A stretch of 64,000 bases of DNA from Nitrospirota bacterium (GTDB taxonomy: Bacteria; Nitrospirota; Leptospirillia; Leptospirillales; Leptospirillaceae), in assembly GCA_021810805.1 (NCBI GenBank), contig JAJZHW010000004.1:62001-126000 (forward strand), in the 5' to 3' direction. A program made the translations under genes and the position numbers. A model generated the notes under the pieces. The model did not search any database, was not told the origin of the DNA, and was given only the letters and a program-made list of their open reading frames with translations. Shown piece after piece: positions 1,267-27,130 of this stretch. Within the stretch, counting starts at the first letter, position 1. Every line of letters starts with the position of its first letter.

Positions 1267-2801
1267 GGATGATCCTTTCTGGGGGAGGAGCTCTCCGGGG
1301 AGGGGGCCATGATGTTTTTTCGAAGCTCAGAGAGGGCCCCGGAAATGCGTGTGAGGGAGACCTCACGACCGAGAAGGATCAGAACGTCGAAAATCCCGGG
1401 GCTGACGGTCTTGCCGGTCAGCGCCACCCGAACGGGCTGGGCGAGATCGCCAAGCTTCCGGTTTTGGGCCTCTCCGATCTGAGTAAAGACGTTCTTCAAT
1501 GTCTCGGCGTTCCATTCCTGAAGAGAGCCCAGGGCGGTCAAAAGAGAGTCGAGGATGGGAATGCTATCCGTCCTAAGTGCCTTCTCCCGGGCTGCCGGGT
1601 CAATGGTCAAGGCGCGGTCGAGAAATGGGTGGGAGCTTTCGGCAAGCTCTGCGAGGGTGCGTGCACGTCCTTTGAGAAGTCCCATGACATGGGCCCGATA
1701 GTCAGGATCCGAACTTCCGGGGAGGGGCTCCTCGATCGGGGCGAGAAGCTCTGTGGCCAGAGGGGCAAGGGCTGCGTCGGGAGAGTTCTTGATATAGTGG
1801 GCATTGAGCCAGAGAAGCTTTTCCGGGTTGAAGACACTGGGGGAGGAGCCCACATGGTCGAGATCAAAAAGGGCGATCAGCTCTTCCCGGGAAAAAATTT
1901 CCTGATCCTTGTGGGACCATCCGAGGCGAACAAGATAGTTGGCCAGGGCATGGGGGAGATACCCCATGTCGCGGTAGGCCATGACCGAGGTCGCCCCGTG
2001 GCGTTTTGAGAGCTTTGTCCGGTCGGAACCAAAGATCATGGGAAGATGGGCGAAGAGGGGAATCTCTGCTCCCAGAGCCCGAAAGATGGCAATCTGCCGA
2101 GGGGTATTGTTGATGTGGTCGTCGCCGCGAATCACATGGGTAATCTTCATATCCGCGTCATCCACCACGACAGCAAAGTTGTAGGTGGGCATCCCGTCGG
2201 TCCGAAGGATCACGAGGTCGTCGAGAAGATTGCCGTCGAAGGAAAGGGGGCCCCGGATCAGGTCGGAGAAGGCGAAAATCTGATCTGGAGTGTTCCGAAA
2301 GCGGATGACATGGGGAGTCTCGGGGGAGACATGCCGGTCGCGGCAGCGGCCATCGTAGCGGGGGGGAAGGCCTTTGGCCTGGGCCTCCTTGCGACGCTCC
2401 TCAAGTTCATCCGGAGTGCAGGAACAGCGATAGGCGTGGCCACGGGCCATAAGGTCGAGGGCAACATCACGGTAACGGTCCAGTCGGCTGGTCTGATAGA
2501 TGGGACCCTCATCCCAGGTCAGGTCCAGCCAGCGCATTCCGTCGAGAATGGCGGCAATGGCCGAATCGGTGGAGCGTTCTCGGTCGGTATCCTCAATCCT
2601 TAAAAGAAAGACTCCCCGGTGGTGGCGTGCAAAAAGAAAATTGAAGAGGGCGGTCCGCGCCCCGCCCAGGTGGAGGTTCCCCGTAGGGCTCGGAGCAAAG
2701 CGGACACGTATGGGAGATGGTATGGTCTGAGAGGTCAACTGTCTGATCCAGAAATGGGGCCGAATCGTGGCCGGAATGGGGAGGATCTCGCCTCCGGACA
2801 A
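1263..2801 (-). CDS. gltX: Glutamyl-tRNA synthetase
   Basis: Class I aminoacyl-tRNA synthetase that charges tRNA-Glu (and possibly tRNA-Gln as a misacylating enzyme). The HIGH-type signature appears as PSPTGNLHLGG near residues 37-47 and the KMSKS-type loop as DRTKLSKRHG near residue 265. The C-terminal anticodon-binding part ends in a short Ser-rich tail. The frame is open to a TTG at 2799-2801, but most homologues begin only a few residues before the VRFAPSPTG block, so a second TTG at 2736-2738 is an alternative start. A sigma-70-like promoter sits just upstream. The stop overlaps the next gene (ATGA), making this the first gene of a three-gene operon. Confidence 0.95.
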   Translation of the reverse strand: MSGGEILPIPATIRPHFWIRQLTSQTIPSPIRVRFAPSPTGNLHLGGARTALFNFLFARHHRGVFLLRIEDTDRERSTDSAIAAILDGMRWLDLTWDEGPIYQTSRLDRYRDVALDLMARGHAYRCSCTPDELEERRKEAQAKGLPPRYDGRCRDRHVSPETPHVIRFRNTPDQIFAFSDLIRGPLSFDGNLLDDLVILRTDGMPTYNFAVVVDDADMKITHVIRGDDHINNTPRQIAIFRALGAEIPLFAHLPMIFGSDRTKLSKRHGATSVMAYRDMGYLPHALANYLVRLGWSHKDQEIFSREELIALFDLDHVGSSPSVFNPEKLLWLNAHYIKNSPDAALAPLATELLAPIEEPLPGSSDPDYRAHVMGLLKGRARTLAELAESSHPFLDRALTIDPAAREKALRTDSIPILDSLLTALGSLQEWNAETLKNVFTQIGEAQNRKLGDLAQPVRVALTGKTVSPGIFDVLILLGREVSLTRISGALSELRKNIMAPSPESSSPRKDHP

Positions 2802-2816
2802 GCAAATATTGAGGGT

Positions 2817-2846
2817 GATTATATCAGGTCTTCCTCGAAACGTAAA
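2817..2846 (-). promoter_or_regulatory. Probable sigma-70 promoter of gltX
   Basis: Read on the minus strand, TATAAT occupies 2822-2817 and TTTACG 2846-2841, separated by 18 bases. The predicted start lies near 2810, just before the first possible gltX start codon. Confidence 0.55.
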
Positions 2847-2893
2847 GGCAAAAATGAATGCAGGACTTGGATTTTCCTGAATTGAAAGAGTCT

Positions 2894-2923
2894 TTGACCT
2901 CTCCTCCGGGACCGGTCTATAAT
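2894..2923 (+). promoter_or_regulatory. Strong sigma-70-like promoter for the lipoprotein-nadB series
   Basis: TTGACC at 2894-2899 and a perfect TATAAT at 2918-2923 are spaced by 18 bases. Transcription would start near 2930, about 60 bases before the ATG at 2991. It lies back to back with the gltX promoter. Confidence 0.65.
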
Positions 2924-2990
2924 TTCATCCGGACGCGAGACCGACCAGGCGCCTGAAGGGTGACCGGATCGCGGCAGAAACGGGGGGGGC

Positions 2991-3569
2991 ATGACGCATT
3001 GTAAAAGCGAGAAGGATGTGGTGGCAGAATCGTCAAAAAAAAGATTCTCTCTCCGTTTTTTAGTTGGCATTCGACCATTCGTGGCAGTCGCTTGGCTGAC
3101 GCTGGCGGGAGTGATGCTCGTCGTCCTGGGAGGTTGCGGGGAGGTCAAGCCCCTGACTCCCGAACAACAATCCTTCATGGCGGCATGGAGGATCGGAAAG
3201 GATCTGGGGAAGGCCTTTGCCAAGGGAAATCCCCAAGCGGTCGAGGGCCTTCTGGGACCTCCTTTATCGGTGGACCCCAAGACCCATACTGGCCTGTTGG
3301 GGATCTTTGCCGTGCTGGACAAGATTGATCTCAGAATTGTGATGGATTCGGGAACGGTCGATGAGACGAGCCATGTCATGAACTTTCAGGGCCACTGGAC
3401 CATGTCGGCCATTTCCAAGGGGCCGCTCAAGGCGGGAACCCGGTATTTTCAGACAGGAGAGGCCCGATTTGTGGTCTCTTTGACAAAGCCTCCCGGAAAG
3501 CCAAGGCTCCTTTCTCTCTCCGGAGACACCTTCCTCCGGACCTCGATTGCGGCAAAGCCTCCGGGATGA
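2991..3569 (+). CDS. Putative lipoprotein
   Basis: A 192-residue protein with a long basic N-region, a hydrophobic core (about 28-46) and a lipobox VLGGC with Cys49, so export and lipidation are likely. The mature part is about 140 residues and resembles a small alpha/beta domain, but I do not recognise a family. A G-rich stretch precedes the ATG. The stop overlaps the nadB ATG (ATGA), so the two are co-transcribed; nothing in the sequence links its function to NAD synthesis. The unusually long N-region leaves the start slightly uncertain. Confidence 0.7.
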   Translation: MTHCKSEKDVVAESSKKRFSLRFLVGIRPFVAVAWLTLAGVMLVVLGGCGEVKPLTPEQQSFMAAWRIGKDLGKAFAKGNPQAVEGLLGPPLSVDPKTHTGLLGIFAVLDKIDLRIVMDSGTVDETSHVMNFQGHWTMSAISKGPLKAGTRYFQTGEARFVVSLTKPPGKPRLLSLSGDTFLRTSIAAKPPG

Positions 3570-21132: not shown

Positions 21133-21469
21133 TACTAAATTTCACCAGGTCGACTTCGTAAGGCACCACTGCGTCTCAATATTTTTTGAGAATACGAAAG
21201 ATGGGTTAAGTCCCCCTTTTGATTTCTTTGCCGAAGGGAAGAGGACCTTGAGGATCCGAAAGACGATGCGAAAAAGTCTCCCGGGATAAAAATGGAGAGG
21301 GAGAATGCCCTCCTCAGCCCCTCCGTTCAGGAAACCAGTGGCGATGTTCGGGAGCTGAGGGCGGAGGAGACGGATCTCCTCATTCCACTTGCAATCATCC
21401 ATAGATCTGAGGATAATTGATAAAAATTTTTCCGATTTTATATTGCAATCAACAGATGAAAGATGATCG
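21133..21469. other. Stretch without a recognisable gene
   Basis: 337 bases between the transposase and the Rpn gene. Open frames here are short and resemble no family I know. It probably contains the right end of the insertion sequence and the promoter of the Rpn gene. AT content rises towards 21420-21470. Confidence 0.4.
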
Positions 21470-22432
21470 ATGAATGACATCGCCCTGCATGACCGTTTTT
21501 TCAAGTCCACACTGGGGCGACCGGACCGAATGGGAAAGGTGCTCAAGGCCTTTCTTCCTCCGGGGATTTCCTCGTCTCTCGACCCTGGCTCTCTCGTTCC
21601 CCTGGCGACGGAATCCGTGGGAGAGGGCCTCGATGCCTCCCTCATGGACCTGGCTTTCTCGGCACGATTCGGCGACCAGGAGACCCGGATCCACCTGATC
21701 GTGGAGCACAAGAGCTCCCCGGACGACGGGGTTCACTTCCAGATTGCCCATTACCTCTGTGGTCTCTGGGCTCGGGAGAGAAAGGAGAGGCGACCGCTCC
21801 TTCCTCTCCTTCCCATCCTCTTCTACCACGGAGGGCGACCCTGGTCACTCCCCGGAAGGCTCTCCGACGTGCTGAAGCCTCCCCCGGAGCTTCTTGCGGT
21901 CACTCCCGACTTTCTCCTTCCCGTCATCGATCTTCACCGGATCGAGGATGAGGAGATCCGGAGCCGGTTCGACGATGTCGAGGCTGTGCTGGCGCTTCTT
22001 TCTCTCAAACATATCTTCGACGGCATCGAGACATGTGCACGACTTCTCCTTCGCGAGATCTGGGAGCGAAAAGCCCCCTATGGTATACTCAAACCGGAGA
22101 TGGACTATATGGGCAGCATGCATGGGATCCGCAGTCCCCTGGAGATGAAACGGATTCTCGATCCCATCGCCAAGGAGGTAGGAATGGCTCAAAGCATCGT
22201 CGATACCTGGATGGAGGAATGGCTTCAGCAGGGAATAGAGCAGGGAATCCGGCAAGGGGTCCAGCAAGGAATCCAGCAGGGGGTCCAGCAAGGCGTTCGG
22301 CAGAATCAGGAACAGATGATTGACCGTCTACTGCAGCGGGGTGGGTTTTCTCACGAGGAGATTGCCTCGCTCGTCAATGTCGACATCGTCCGCGTTCGGG
22401 AGATTGCGGAGAGCTTAGGCAAAGGATCCTGA
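21470..22432 (+). CDS. Rpn-family PD-(D/E)XK nuclease (recombination-promoting nuclease, transposase_31)
   Basis: A 320-residue protein beginning MNDIALHDRFFKSTLG, the usual start of Rpn proteins. The nuclease core is intact: Asp60 in SLMDLAFSAR and Glu79-x-Lys81 in LIVEHKSS. After a central helical region, the C-terminus has MAQSIVDTWMEEWLQQG, six imperfect 4-residue units of the form G(I/V)xQ, and a helical end (FSHEEIASLVNVDIVRVREI). Rpn proteins cleave DNA; some act in phage defence and are restrained by a short protein made from an internal start. Such a start is visible here at 22184. The last part is duplicated just downstream. Confidence 0.9.
   Translation: MNDIALHDRFFKSTLGRPDRMGKVLKAFLPPGISSSLDPGSLVPLATESVGEGLDASLMDLAFSARFGDQETRIHLIVEHKSSPDDGVHFQIAHYLCGLWARERKERRPLLPLLPILFYHGGRPWSLPGRLSDVLKPPPELLAVTPDFLLPVIDLHRIEDEEIRSRFDDVEAVLALLSLKHIFDGIETCARLLLREIWERKAPYGILKPEMDYMGSMHGIRSPLEMKRILDPIAKEVGMAQSIVDTWMEEWLQQGIEQGIRQGVQQGIQQGVQQGVRQNQEQMIDRLLQRGGFSHEEIASLVNVDIVRVREIAESLGKGS
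22184..22432 (+). CDS. Internal start: predicted short C-terminal Rpn product (RpnS-like antitoxin)
   Basis: Inside the Rpn gene, in the same frame, an ATG (22184-22186, Met239 of the long protein) is preceded by AAGGAGGT at 22172-22179, an almost perfect Shine-Dalgarno sequence at good distance, much better than that of the long protein itself. It would make an 82-residue protein comprising MAQSIVDTWMEEW, the 4-residue repeats and the C-terminal helices. In characterised Rpn genes an internal product of this kind blocks the nuclease. That this one is made and acts so is inferred. Confidence 0.6.
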   Translation: MAQSIVDTWMEEWLQQGIEQGIRQGVQQGIQQGVQQGVRQNQEQMIDRLLQRGGFSHEEIASLVNVDIVRVREIAESLGKGS

Positions 22433-22683
22433 GATCTGACCGCTCCTCGGCAAAGTCGGAGGCTGGGAATGGCTCAAAGCATCGTCGATACCTGGATGGA
22501 GGAATGGCTTCAGCAGGGAATACAGCAGGGGATTCAGCAAGGGGTCCAGCAGGGAGTCCAGCAAGGCGTTCGGCAGAATCAGGAACAGATGATCGACCGT
22601 CTACTGCAGCGGGGAGGGTTTTCTCACGAGGAGATTGCCTCGCTCGTCAATGTCGACATCGTCCGCGTTCGGGAGATTGCGGG
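22184..22683 (+). repeat. Tandem 3'-end duplication, 285-bp period
   Basis: 22184-22409 and 22469-22683 are nearly identical, with the copies differing by one 12-base repeat unit (one GVQQ-type block) and a few substitutions. About 60 bases of unique DNA lie between them. The inner 12-base units are themselves tandem repeats that can expand and contract. Confidence 0.85.
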
Positions 22684-22696
22684 AGAGATTGACTAA
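22469..22696 (+). CDS. Free-standing duplicate of the Rpn C-terminal domain
   Basis: A 75-residue frame that repeats the short internal product of the preceding gene almost word for word: same MAQSIVDTWMEEWLQQG start, same RQNQEQMIDRLLQRGGFSHE block, ending AGEID in place of AESLGKGS. It has five 4-residue units instead of six. Its ATG lies at the same codon as the internal start of the long gene and has its own ribosome site, GGAGG at 22458-22462. It contains no nuclease residues. It is either a stand-alone antitoxin-like protein or the 3' remnant of a second copy. Confidence 0.65.
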   Translation: MAQSIVDTWMEEWLQQGIQQGIQQGVQQGVQQGVRQNQEQMIDRLLQRGGFSHEEIASLVNVDIVRVREIAGEID

Positions 22697-22932
22697 GGGA
22701 TCCAATGATCTTCCCGAAGAATAACCACGGACCTTGATCGACGGCTTTGCGCGATAAAGTCCGGGGGGCATCGACGGTTCTTTCTTTAGGGGCCCCTCCG
22801 AACCTTTCCGGTCCTTTTTTCCATGCGCTCCTCCCTCAGCCCCTTCCTGTCGTCTCTCCCACGTCGGGGAATCTTTCGGCCCCAACCAAGGCTCTCCCCC
22901 TTAGGTCTGGCTCTTGTGATCCCCCTACTCCC

Positions 22933-24315
22933 TCAATCTCCGGCGATGCGGAGCCCTTCCACGAGGAGGGAGGGGGAGTTGATCGACGATCGAATTTCAA
23001 GATCCGACCCCCGATCGACAATATTCTGGTAGACCTCGTCGAGGGTTCCCGCCAGGGTGATCTCCGAGACGGGATGGAGGATCGCCCCGTCCTCAAACCA
23101 GTAGCCGAAGGCCCCGCGGGAATAGTCTCCCGTCACGGTGCTCACCCCAAATCCGATCAGCTCCGTCACAAGAAGCCCTTTTCCGGCCTTTTTCATGAGA
23201 TCTTCGAGGGAGGATGTTCCGGGAACAACGATCAGGTTCGAGATCCCCACCCCCGGCCCGTCTCCCAGGGAGCGCACCGCGTTGGCGGTGGACTGTCGCC
23301 CCAGCTTCCGGGCCGAATAGGTGTCGAAGAGGAAGGTCTGGAGAACGCCCTCGTCGACCAGGGTCTTCTTGCGGGTGGGGAGACCCTCTCCGTCGAAGGG
23401 ACGGCTTCCTGGCGCTCCGGGGAGAAAGGGGTCCTCCCGGAGGGTCATGCAGGCGTTCATCACCGGAGTCCCCTCGCGTCCCTTGAGGTAGGTGGCGTTT
23501 CTGTAGAGGGCGGAGCCGGAGACGGCTCCGGCGAAGTGGCCGATCAGACTGCGGGCGGTCTCGGGGTCGAAGATGACCGGATAGCTCCCGGTCTTGATCC
23601 GACGGGCCCCCAGTCTCCTGACGGTGCGGGAGGCGGCCTTTTTTCCGATCCCCTCTGCGTCAGAGGTCTTCTCCCAGAGCGGCCCCGTCACGTACCAATA
23701 GTCCCGCTCCATCTGATCTCCCGAGGTGGCGATGACCGAGCAGGAAAGGGCATAGGAGCTCTTCCGGTATCCGTGAAGGAACCCCAGGCTGTTGCCGAAG
23801 ACGATGTGGGAGTGGGAGCGGGAGCATTCAGCTCCTTCCGAGTTCGTGATCCGGGGATCATAGGAAAGGGCGGCCTTCTCGGTGGCCAGAGCCCGTTCCA
23901 CCAGTTCGTCGCGGGAAGGGGAATGGCTCTCTTCGGGAAAGAGCTTTGCAGGGTCGATGGCCGGGGGAAGGATCCGGTCGGGAAGTCCCGCGTAGGGGTC
24001 TTCCGCGGTGTGCTGGGCCATGGCCACGGCTCGCGCCACGAGGGTCCTGAGATGGTCGGGGGAGAGATCCCGGGTGGCAACGCTGGACTGGCGGGTTCCG
24101 GCAAAGACCCGGATTCCGATGCCCCGGCTCTGGGCGGCCTGGACCTTCTCGATCTCACCCTTTCTCACTCCTACCGTCTCTTCGACTCCTGAGATGAAGA
24201 GGGCATCGGCAGAGGTGGCTCCGGCCGAGCGGGCGGCTTCGAGAATGAATCGGATAGCCTCTTCCCCATCTTCAAAGCTTTTTGAGGGGAGGTTTTGGGA
24301 GGGGACAACGTTCAA
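22933..24315 (-). CDS. pmbA: TldE/PmbA, partner subunit of the TldD protease
   Basis: TldE forms a heterodimer with TldD, a zinc metalloprotease that degrades unfolded peptides and processes some modified peptides; TldE lacks the zinc motif. This frame shows the family blocks RSAGATSADALFI, RGIGIRVFAG, the SGSALYRNATYLKG and KKTLVDEGVLQTFLFDTYSARKLG-type regions and the C-terminal GDYSRGAFGYWFEDG. Start is a TTG at 24313-24315 with AGGAGA 7 bases upstream (460 residues, normal); a longer frame to 24387 would overlap tldD by 50 bases. It follows tldD by 19 bases. Confidence 0.9.
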   Translation of the reverse strand: MNVVPSQNLPSKSFEDGEEAIRFILEAARSAGATSADALFISGVEETVGVRKGEIEKVQAAQSRGIGIRVFAGTRQSSVATRDLSPDHLRTLVARAVAMAQHTAEDPYAGLPDRILPPAIDPAKLFPEESHSPSRDELVERALATEKAALSYDPRITNSEGAECSRSHSHIVFGNSLGFLHGYRKSSYALSCSVIATSGDQMERDYWYVTGPLWEKTSDAEGIGKKAASRTVRRLGARRIKTGSYPVIFDPETARSLIGHFAGAVSGSALYRNATYLKGREGTPVMNACMTLREDPFLPGAPGSRPFDGEGLPTRKKTLVDEGVLQTFLFDTYSARKLGRQSTANAVRSLGDGPGVGISNLIVVPGTSSLEDLMKKAGKGLLVTELIGFGVSTVTGDYSRGAFGYWFEDGAILHPVSEITLAGTLDEVYQNIVDRGSDLEIRSSINSPSLLVEGLRIAGD

Positions 24316-24334
24316 GGGGCGATCTCCTGTCTGT

Positions 24335-25771
24335 CTAATTTGTTCCACCGACGGTGAGGGCGTCGACACGGATTGTGGGAAGGCCAACCCCTACCGGGAC
24401 CGACTGGCCGTCCTTGCCGCAGGTGCCGACGCCGGTGTCGAGGGACATGTCCGTTCCCACCATGCGGACCTTGGTGAGGACGTCGGGACCATTGCCGATC
24501 AGGGTGGCACCCTTGACGGGGTGAAGGATCTTCCCCTTCTCGACGTAGTAGGCCTCCGACATCGAGAAGACGAACTTGCCCGAGGTGATGTCCACCTGTC
24601 CGCCGCCGAAGTTGACGGCATAGATTCCCCGATCGAGGGAGGCCAGAACCTCGGCCGGGTCACTCTCCCCGGGGAGCATGACGGTGTTGGTCATCCGGGG
24701 CATGACAGGGTGGGCGTAGGACTCTCGGCGGCCGTTGCCGGTAGAGTGGGTGCCCATAAGCCGGGCATTCTGGCGGTCCTGAAGATAGCCCCGGAGGATC
24801 CCATTTTCGATGAGCACTGTCCGCTGAGTGGGTGTCCCTTCGTCATCGACGTTCAAGGATCCGCGGCGACCAGGAAGGGTGCCGTCGTCGATGATGGTGC
24901 ACAGCGGGGAAGCGACCCGCTGGCCGATTCGCCCCGAGAAGGCCGAGGTGCCCTTGCGGTTGAAGTCCCCCTCGAGACCGTGGCCGATGGCTTCGTGCAG
25001 GAGAATGCCTGGCCAGCCGGGCCCCAGGACCACGTCCATCGTTCCCGACGGGCAGGGACGAGCCTCAAGGTTCACGAGGGCCTGCCTCACGGCCTCGCGG
25101 CAGGCCTGAGCCAAGCGCTCCGGCGAGACGATTCCGGAAAAGTCCGTGCGTCCTCCCCATCCGTAGGAGCCGGTCTGACGGTTGGATCCCTCCTGGGCGA
25201 TGACAGAGACGTTGAGGCGCGTCAGGGGGATCCTGTCCACCACCACCTGACCATCGGAGCGGACAATCTGGACCGTCTTGTCCTCGAAGGCCAGGGAGGC
25301 CATTACCTGGACGACCTTAGAGCTCTCCTGCCGGCAGAGGCGATCGATGGTTTCAAGAATCCCGATCTTGTCGGGCACCGGGCGGTCGAAGGCCAGATCG
25401 GTCGTGGGATAGAGGTTGTGCTGGGGACGACCAGGGCGCGAGAGGGCCAGCGGGCGGCCGGAGCCGGGACCCTGTGCGATCCTCCGGGCCGACTCCAGAG
25501 CCTGGGCGATCTGCCTCGGGGAAAACTCTTCGGTAAAGGCAAAGCCCGTCCGCTCCCCGGAGACGATCCGGGCGCCCACTCCCTGGCTGACATCCTGGCC
25601 GGCCTTTTTGACCATCCCGTCCTCGACGCTGTAGTGCTCGCGGAGGGTGTGTTCGAAGTAGAGGTCGGCGTCGTCCACGGTGGATGGGAGGGCCACATGG
25701 GCGAGAGCCGACTGGAGACTCTCGGTAGTGCTTTCGACGCGGTCTTCAAAAAATCGGACAATATCCGGCAC
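24335..25771 (-). CDS. tldD: TldD metalloprotease subunit
   Basis: The catalytic half of the TldD/TldE protease. The zinc-binding HExxxH is present as LLHEAIGHGLEGD, with the further conserved NDDEGTPTQRT-like and GNGRRESYAHPVMPRMTNT segments downstream. The frame runs upstream to 26050, but the family begins at the IVRFFEDRVES block, and a GTG at 25769-25771 has AGGAGG 9 bases upstream, giving 478 residues, which is the normal length. It is followed closely by pmbA; both subunits are therefore made together. Confidence 0.93.
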   Translation of the reverse strand: MPDIVRFFEDRVESTTESLQSALAHVALPSTVDDADLYFEHTLREHYSVEDGMVKKAGQDVSQGVGARIVSGERTGFAFTEEFSPRQIAQALESARRIAQGPGSGRPLALSRPGRPQHNLYPTTDLAFDRPVPDKIGILETIDRLCRQESSKVVQVMASLAFEDKTVQIVRSDGQVVVDRIPLTRLNVSVIAQEGSNRQTGSYGWGGRTDFSGIVSPERLAQACREAVRQALVNLEARPCPSGTMDVVLGPGWPGILLHEAIGHGLEGDFNRKGTSAFSGRIGQRVASPLCTIIDDGTLPGRRGSLNVDDEGTPTQRTVLIENGILRGYLQDRQNARLMGTHSTGNGRRESYAHPVMPRMTNTVMLPGESDPAEVLASLDRGIYAVNFGGGQVDITSGKFVFSMSEAYYVEKGKILHPVKGATLIGNGPDVLTKVRMVGTDMSLDTGVGTCGKDGQSVPVGVGLPTIRVDALTVGGTN

Positions 25772-25882
25772 GATGCGTGTCCTCCTGGTTGTCTGGCCCG
25801 TTAAAATCACGGGGAAAGAATTTCCCGGGGACCGGGGGGGAACTCTCTTTGGGGAGATTGTATGATCTGAGATCCTCCGTTC

Positions 25883-25958
25883 ATTATACAGGGGGGGAGA
25901 GCTGTGATCTATCGGATCTTCTGAAAGAAAATTCAGAGGGGGGACGCCAGAACCCCCC
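25883..25958 (-). promoter_or_regulatory. Possible tldD promoter box and nearby hairpin
   Basis: On the minus strand a perfect TATAAT occupies 25888-25883, about 110 bases before the tldD GTG, but no good -35 box is visible. GGGGGG (25938-25943) and CCCCCC (25953-25958) could form a hairpin. The divergent spacer 25772-26032 shows nothing else. Confidence 0.3.
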
Positions 25959-26032
25959 TTCAGACCCCCGAAAGACAAGGGAAAAATCGCGGAGACAGCC
26001 TGAAGGCTGAAGACCAGCAAGAGAGGAGAGGG

Positions 26033-27130
26033 ATGGGGCGGGGAGCGCAAGGGGTCAGGGAGATGATGGAGGCCGGGTGCCGGGAGGGGATCTTTCCCGG
26101 CGGGGTCGTCCTTTGGGGGAACCGGCGGGAGATCCGGGGAGAGGTGGCCGTGGGCGTGGGGCGGGTGACTCCTCCGGAGCCCTTGCCTTTGGTGACCCCC
26201 GCCACCCTTTTCGATCTGGCCTCGCTCACCAAGCCCCTGGTCACCGGGGCCCTGGTGCTACTTGCCGTCGCCGAGGGAAGGACGACGCTGGACTCCCCCC
26301 TCTCCGACAGTCTCCCCGTGTCCCGAGGTTCCCGATGGGGAGAGGCCCCCCTGCGGGAGCTCCTTACTCATTCCTCCGGTCTTCCGGCCTGGGCTCCCCT
26401 CTACCAGAAAATCGATGAAACTCTCCCCGGAGAGGAGAGGAAGAGACGGCTTCTCCGGGAGATCCTCGCCCTTTCCCCGGCGGGGGAGAGGGGAAAGGCC
26501 TCCCTCTATAGCGACTTTGGCTTCATGCTCCTGGGGTGGGCGCTGGAGGAGATCTTCGGAGAGGGCCTCGATCGCCTCTACCGCAAACGTGTCGCCGCTC
26601 CCCTGGGACTTGATGGAGTGGACTTCCTCTCGGAGGGATCCTCCCTGCCCTGGCAGGAGCCCGACCGCGACCGCCACTTTGCCGCCACTGAGGTCGATTC
26701 GGAAAGCGGAGAACCATGGGTGGGGGTCGTTCACGACGAGCATGCCCGGATCCTGGGAGGGGTCTCCGGCCATGCCGGCCTCTTTGGAACGGCTCGGGGA
26801 GTTTGGTCGCTGGCCCGGCCCTGGATGGCACAGAAGGGAGAGGGGGGGATTTTCCCTGAGGAGCTTTTGCAGGAGTTCACCCGGAGGCAGGAGCCGCTGG
26901 AGTGGGCGCTGGGATTCGATACCCCGACCGCGGGATCCTCCAGCGGGACGAAGATGACTCCGGGGGCCTCCATCGGCCATCTGGGCTATGCCGGCACCTC
27001 CGTCTGGATGGATCGGGCCCGGGACAGGATCATCGTGCTTTTGACGAATCGGGTCCACCCCACCCGGACCAACAACCGGATCCGGGAGTTCCGTCCCCGG
27101 CTTCACGATCGGGTGGACGAGGCCTTTTAG
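26033..27130 (+). CDS. Beta-lactamase-like serine hydrolase (class C / esterase B type)
   Basis: A 365-residue protein of the penicillin-binding/class C beta-lactamase fold. The nucleophile motif SxxK is SLTK at residues 64-67, the second motif is YSD in ASLYSDFGFMLLG in place of YxN, and the third is HLGYAGTS near the C-terminus in place of KTG. No signal peptide is present, suggesting a cytoplasmic esterase or peptidase rather than a periplasmic beta-lactamase. Substrate unknown. It starts divergently from tldD and converges on hpnC, whose stop overlaps its own. Confidence 0.85.
   Translation: MGRGAQGVREMMEAGCREGIFPGGVVLWGNRREIRGEVAVGVGRVTPPEPLPLVTPATLFDLASLTKPLVTGALVLLAVAEGRTTLDSPLSDSLPVSRGSRWGEAPLRELLTHSSGLPAWAPLYQKIDETLPGEERKRRLLREILALSPAGERGKASLYSDFGFMLLGWALEEIFGEGLDRLYRKRVAAPLGLDGVDFLSEGSSLPWQEPDRDRHFAATEVDSESGEPWVGVVHDEHARILGGVSGHAGLFGTARGVWSLARPWMAQKGEGGIFPEELLQEFTRRQEPLEWALGFDTPTAGSSSGTKMTPGASIGHLGYAGTSVWMDRARDRIIVLLTNRVHPTRTNNRIREFRPRLHDRVDEAF

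Follow-up and report, generated by a model that had tools for sequence, protein, structure and literature searches.

An rpn-like toxin gene that is followed directly by a second copy of its own C-terminal tail raises the question of what such a free-standing copy could contribute to the locus. Zhong et al. (2023) have described that the short protein, RpnS, can be expressed either from inside rpn or from a gene of its own (PMC10327210). In the window analysed here (the whole stretch of 64,000 nucleotides from a Nitrospirota bacterium, in which all positions are given unless another locus is named), candidates for both forms lie one behind the other, and the free copy could be a plain spare, an antitoxin of altered specificity or a by-product of duplication.

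The long gene and its internal start

The long gene (21470..22432, + strand) encodes a 320 aa protein, RpnL, organised as a nuclease domain of PD-(D/E)XK type followed by a helical tail holding six four-residue units. RpnL matches PF04754 (Rpn/YhgA-like nuclease) with 106.9 bits and E=1.4e-30 at a curated cut-off of 21, and lies below the cut-off of NCBIfam TIGR01784 (44.7 vs 52.1 bits, E=1.4e-11); as the PF04754 membership is clear, the TIGR01784 shortfall lowers the subfamily label alone. D60 and E79-H-K81 are present without exception in two alignments of relatives and, as expected, would fit a PD-(D/E)XK active site. In the predicted structure of RpnL (mean pLDDT 84) these residues are located on two adjacent strands, 58-67 and 70-79. 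AlphaFold2 applied to 14 tails gave, for the free RpnS, a long helix (4-48) that contains all repeat units, followed by two short helices (53-60 and 64-74), with a mean pLDDT of 71 that rises to near 90 in the C-terminal part; this model agrees with the three-helix structure of RpnA-S (PDB 7TH0 as cited in PMC10327210). Searching the PDB with the folds of RpnL and the free tail returned no significant match, the weak hits being to DNA-binding and nuclease proteins, and a sequence search of the PDB gave no match. The window locus thus shares with the Rpn family (COG5464/PF04754, RpnA-S) the nuclease domain, the variable helical tail, the four-residue repeats in helix 1 and the internal start, but differs in that RpnL scores under the TIGR01784 cut-off and in that there is no sequence or fold match to the solved RpnS.

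The start codon of RpnL (ATG 21470) is not preceded by a Shine-Dalgarno-like sequence (AGATGAAAGATGATCG-ATG), whereas the in-frame ATG at 22184 is preceded by a putative internal ribosome-binding site, AAGGAGGT (22172..22179, + strand), which bears out the claim of the earlier note that the internal start is the better equipped of the two. Among the 235 internal in-frame ATGs in the 37 long open reading frames of the window, three exhibit GGAGG at -16..-5, and AAGGAGGT occurs before a single one, ATG 22184. Translation from this codon would yield an intragenic RpnS of 82 aa with all six four-residue units (22184..22432, + strand); its start, Met239 of RpnL, is invariant in 9 relatives and is of the same type as in E. 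coli Rpn. As in RpnL/RpnS genes, the in-frame start with its ribosome-binding site lies just 5' of the repeat helix, and the four-residue repeats stand near the start of the tail and vary in number (six, five). The identification as an Rpn gene that contains a start of RpnS type, based on the PF04754 match and on AAGGAGGT-ATG 22184, therefore stands, and the toxin gene probably carries its own antitoxin as a gene within a gene.

Two promoter-like sites are found 5' of the RpnL gene (21389..21444, + strand; TTGCAA-17-GATAAT and TTGATA-16-TATATT), identified by a consensus scan: two sites compare with 0.4 expected in shuffled sequences, and function is not implied. The locus is flanked by a DDE transposase gene (PF01609, 19183-21132) and by a convergent pair of PmbA/TldD type (22933-26050). 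Full-length RpnL matches Rpn genes at ~25% identity on plasmids, among them those of Leptospira, Providencia and Serratia; no plasmid match was found with the tail, and no RpnL relative was found on viral contigs. The same genome harbours a 66% relative of the window RpnL (L024, G000:C2, ORF 2570-3403, + strand), in which a stop shortly past the repeat helix removes the last two helices while the internal start is intact. A further rpn gene of this genome (L025, G000:C5, 2152-3133, - strand) is split across two frames near residue 200, as would result from a frameshift, and its tail reading frame appears intact.

The free-standing tail gene and its precedents

The second copy of the tail starts 36 bases past the RpnL stop codon (22469..22696, + strand; 75 aa, five four-residue units) and is preceded by a putative ribosome-binding site of its own, GGAGG at 22458..22462 (+ strand). 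The earlier note had described exactly this: a duplicated tail as a separate 75-codon gene with its own GGAGG, 285 bases between the starts at 22184 and 22469, and unequal repeat numbers, and all three points were recovered. In a local alignment 22160-22443 pairs with 22442-22717, and the single gap of 12 bases falls inside the repeat: the internal tail reads QQGI EQGI RQGV QQGI QQGV QQGV (six units) and the free tail QQGI QQGI QQGV QQGV QQGV (five units), one 12-base unit fewer. Outside the repeat the coding parts of the pair are 97% identical, compared with 52% identity upstream (-65..-16) and 49% downstream. DUF4351 (PF14261), the name under which separate RpnS genes of some species are listed, is not matched at E values up to 1; since a scan of K-12 ypaA at E values up to 0.1 does not list DUF4351 either, this label is not required. 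The PADLOC hit (C3a178) and the FliH hits obtained with the tails are driven by the repeat region and were not accepted as homology. With a tail-only gene carrying its own ribosome-binding site directly 3' of an rpn gene, we hold with high confidence that the locus is of Rpn type and that its free RpnS gene is real.

An assembly artefact producing the tandem copy had been named beforehand as a possible refutation. The source genome is indeed a 32-contig assembly in which several other rpn loci lie at contig ends; the locus in question, however, is at about 83.5-84.7 kb of C18, well within this contig of 153.6 kb, the two copies differ by substitutions, by one 12-base unit and by distinct flanks, and other assemblies show this layout again at independent loci, as do finished chromosomes of E. 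coli. The flanks, the substitutions and the recurrence argue against a false product of assembly to the extent that we regard this explanation as extremely improbable and rejected it.

The suggestion that a duplicated stand-alone antitoxin was undescribed proved wrong, as ypaA (rpnES) lies behind rpnE, with its product detected by tagging, and a second free tail gene, rpnCS, lies behind rpnC in some strains (PMC10327210). In the K-12 sequence (NC_000913 2356904-2358001) rpnE has an internal ribosome-binding site and ATG, and right past its stop the AAAAGGAGAGATTA-ATG element (ribosome-binding site and start) repeats and the tail is re-encoded with an extra KLEG unit, so that, as in the window, the two tails are unequal in four-residue units. 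In its arrangement K-12 ypaA is thus an exact parallel, judged from the sequences, and the window locus presents the same layout in another phylum. The pairs also differ: the last 20 residues of the rpnE and ypaA tails have diverged and ~21-24% of core bases differ, in contrast to the 97% identity of the window pair, and RpnE is annotated as inactive in K-12, whereas the window RpnL retains E-x-K. The rpnC-rpnCS pair also consists of an rpn gene and a free tail gene that differs from the internal tail in repeat number and sequence; rpnCS, however, starts with a changed sequence (MEIKTRRETRQ) and is preceded by a spacer of its own, 68 bases long, whereas the free copy of the window has the same start as the internal one.

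Recurrence, selection and exchange of tail copies

The survey of related genomes proposed in the earlier note did reveal tail-only copies beside rpn genes: these are present at at least 11 loci of the window's genus, the window included, and occur in runs of two to four. The genome of the window itself has two tail copies behind rpn on C11 (L020), two behind an rpn tail on C20 (L021) and single tails at contig ends, on C16 and on C2. Elsewhere in the genus, other species have tail-only reading frames behind rpn at L057, L059, L067, L068, L069 (two copies), L070 and L071, and L066 (G002:C66, 1685-2806, - strand) exhibits four consecutive tail reading frames at a contig end. Tail pairs beyond the eleven loci were found at L058 and L063, and other rpn loci of the genus have no tail-only copies. 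Outside the phylum, tail-only copies are also present at L199 and L203, in genomes of one gammaproteobacterial class. No published report of runs of several free tails was found in the literature covered, which includes the main text of PMC10327210.

Some of these loci show additional features. In L066 each tail starts 96 bases past the preceding stop codon, and the linkers comprise 34, 26, 30 and 30 residues. The tail-only reading frame of L203 (G199:C1) starts ~400 bases past the rpn stop, with other tails upstream; here and at L162 (G062:C51), of the gammaproteobacterial class, several rpn tails or genes lie side by side. None of the reading frames picked at L161, L179, L198, L204 and L206 is a complete Rpn tail. 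At L022 (G000:C13, from 498) the spacer 3' of rpn opens like that of the C20 array and then diverges, which looks like a loss of free copies.

For 13 pairs of the genus at 10 loci, the non-repeat parts of internal and free tails gave a pooled pN/pS of 0.22 (0.10-0.33 by bootstrap over loci), a value based on ~34 synonymous and 24 nonsynonymous changes in intact reading frames only, with some pairs sharing an internal copy. For an unconstrained free copy a ratio nearer one half is expected; the estimate together with its upper bound lies under the value for one neutral copy. The free copies also retain the ribosome-binding site, with the sequence just 5' of it being lost. On these grounds the free tail copies look selected.

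The repeat number of internal and free tail is unequal in 12 of the 13 genus pairs and in all seven distinct rpnE alleles, and was also unequal in the rpnC alleles examined (n=6); in the genus the linker differences are always multiples of four residues. A universal mismatch is contradicted by one pair of equal linker length (L021), and selection for mismatch is unsupported, as random re-pairing of the tails is equally mismatched (P 0.88 for no more than one match among the genus pairs; P 0.48 for none in rpnE). What the comparison does show is that the free copy does not follow the adjacent toxin in its repeat number: the two are uncoupled.

The cores behave differently from the leaders in the subfamily of tails starting with MYTVID, which we compared in three species with the leader taken as the 45 bases before the free start. 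The leaders of free copies are 69-100% alike across genomes, and free and internal leaders are 40-49% alike (full-length stretches only). Free and internal cores of the same locus share 97-100% of their bases, apart from the second free copy of C20 with 94%, compared with 77-92% for cores between genomes. As leaders cluster by copy type and cores by genome, the MYTVID subfamily shows concerted evolution: the free genes either predate the split of the species or have moved together with their leader, and homogenisation with the tail of the resident rpn gene has since affected their cores. Single-tailed rpnE alleles are numerous in E. coli, where 5,391 genomes gave an rpnE match, and the three that were examined (L144, L216, L217) end like ypaA and not like the internal rpnE tail. 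One-tail alleles with a C-terminus of ypaA type indicate that tail fusion has happened, such fusions being mentioned by Zhong et al. (PMC10327210), and such chimeric alleles are what would be expected from deletion by recombination between two tails. Taken with the concerted evolution, this suggests recombination between tails as a route of change.

Role of the free-standing copy

The anatomy of the locus, the conserved ribosome-binding site and start, the selection on the cores, the repeated occurrence within the genus as well as in E. coli, and the concerted cores of one subfamily can be read from the sequences themselves. In the account that we propose, the long gene would encode the nuclease RpnL, and translation from the internal start at 22184 would yield the C-terminal tail on its own, as the antitoxin RpnS, which would dimerise. 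The second, free-standing RpnS at 22469 would have arisen when the segment of ribosome-binding site, internal start, tail and stop was duplicated in tandem; it is probably read from the same mRNA as RpnL, and both short proteins would be made. Recombination between internal and free tails would keep helices 2-3 matched to the resident toxin, whilst the twelve-base units could grow and shrink independently of the cores; free RpnS would then be an expressed antitoxin of shifted pairing specificity that may also replace the tail of the toxin by recombination. This account as a whole, of an Rpn toxin-antitoxin locus with an extra antitoxin cistron working in this manner, we consider slightly more likely than not, and the shifted-specificity role of the free copy itself is proposed tentatively, at a little short of even.

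The evidence on specificity comes from RpnC, for which alone an effect of repeat number has been demonstrated: one repeat added to RpnC-S or RpnC-L abolishes inhibition (PMC10327210). If this is general, more than a mere doubling of the antitoxin is to be expected from the free copy. One alternative is a cognate spare, in which the repeat difference is tolerated and free RpnS raises the ratio of antitoxin to toxin. The core helices, almost identical to those of the resident tail, under purifying selection and homogenised within the genome, are compatible with such a role, as are the operon-like layout 36 bases past the stop and the detection of the ypaA product in E. coli. Against this, neither the genus nor E. 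coli shows coupling of repeat number between the free copy and the toxin next to it, and inhibition in RpnC is lost by a change of one repeat. Of the two roles that the earlier note had raised, a spare and protection against a related Rpn, these observations together favour altered specificity over a simple spare, which we rate as rather unlikely. Given the loss of RpnC inhibition on addition of one repeat, the free copy appears more likely to be a variant-specificity antitoxin or a tail donor than a plain spare.

Less probable still is that the free copies are only transient tandem duplicates arising at a repetitive tail, with no role as proteins and at most able to re-tail RpnL. The many local duplications and losses, the chimeric one-tail rpnE alleles, the spacer start without a free copy on G000:C13 and the concerted evolution of the cores could all be explained in this manner. 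Against this, the pooled pN/pS (0.22, upper bound 0.33) lies under the expectation for one neutral copy; moreover, the ribosome-binding site and ATG are retained while the upstream sequence is lost, and the leaders of the free copies are conserved between species. Our preferred reading is an expressed antitoxin of shifted specificity that would also exchange sequence with the tail of the toxin.

The findings add to the known picture that tail-only copies are common in this genus, that they appear to be under selection, that in one subfamily their cores evolve in concert and that their repeat numbers are uncoupled from those of the adjacent toxin. As a speculative and in our judgement improbable extension, rows of free RpnS genes might serve as a bank of tails, from which recombination would swap the specificity of antitoxin and toxin in one step, the free variants also forming a set of antitoxins against foreign or sister RpnL of other repeat number; if true, toxin and antitoxin would be diversified together by a system of cassette type. 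How the twelve-base repeats change and how extra downstream RpnS genes come about are open questions according to Zhong et al. (PMC10327210). In this genus, internal and free tails that differ in repeat number but hardly in their cores occur together naturally, and such matched proteins would make specificity versus dosage directly testable.
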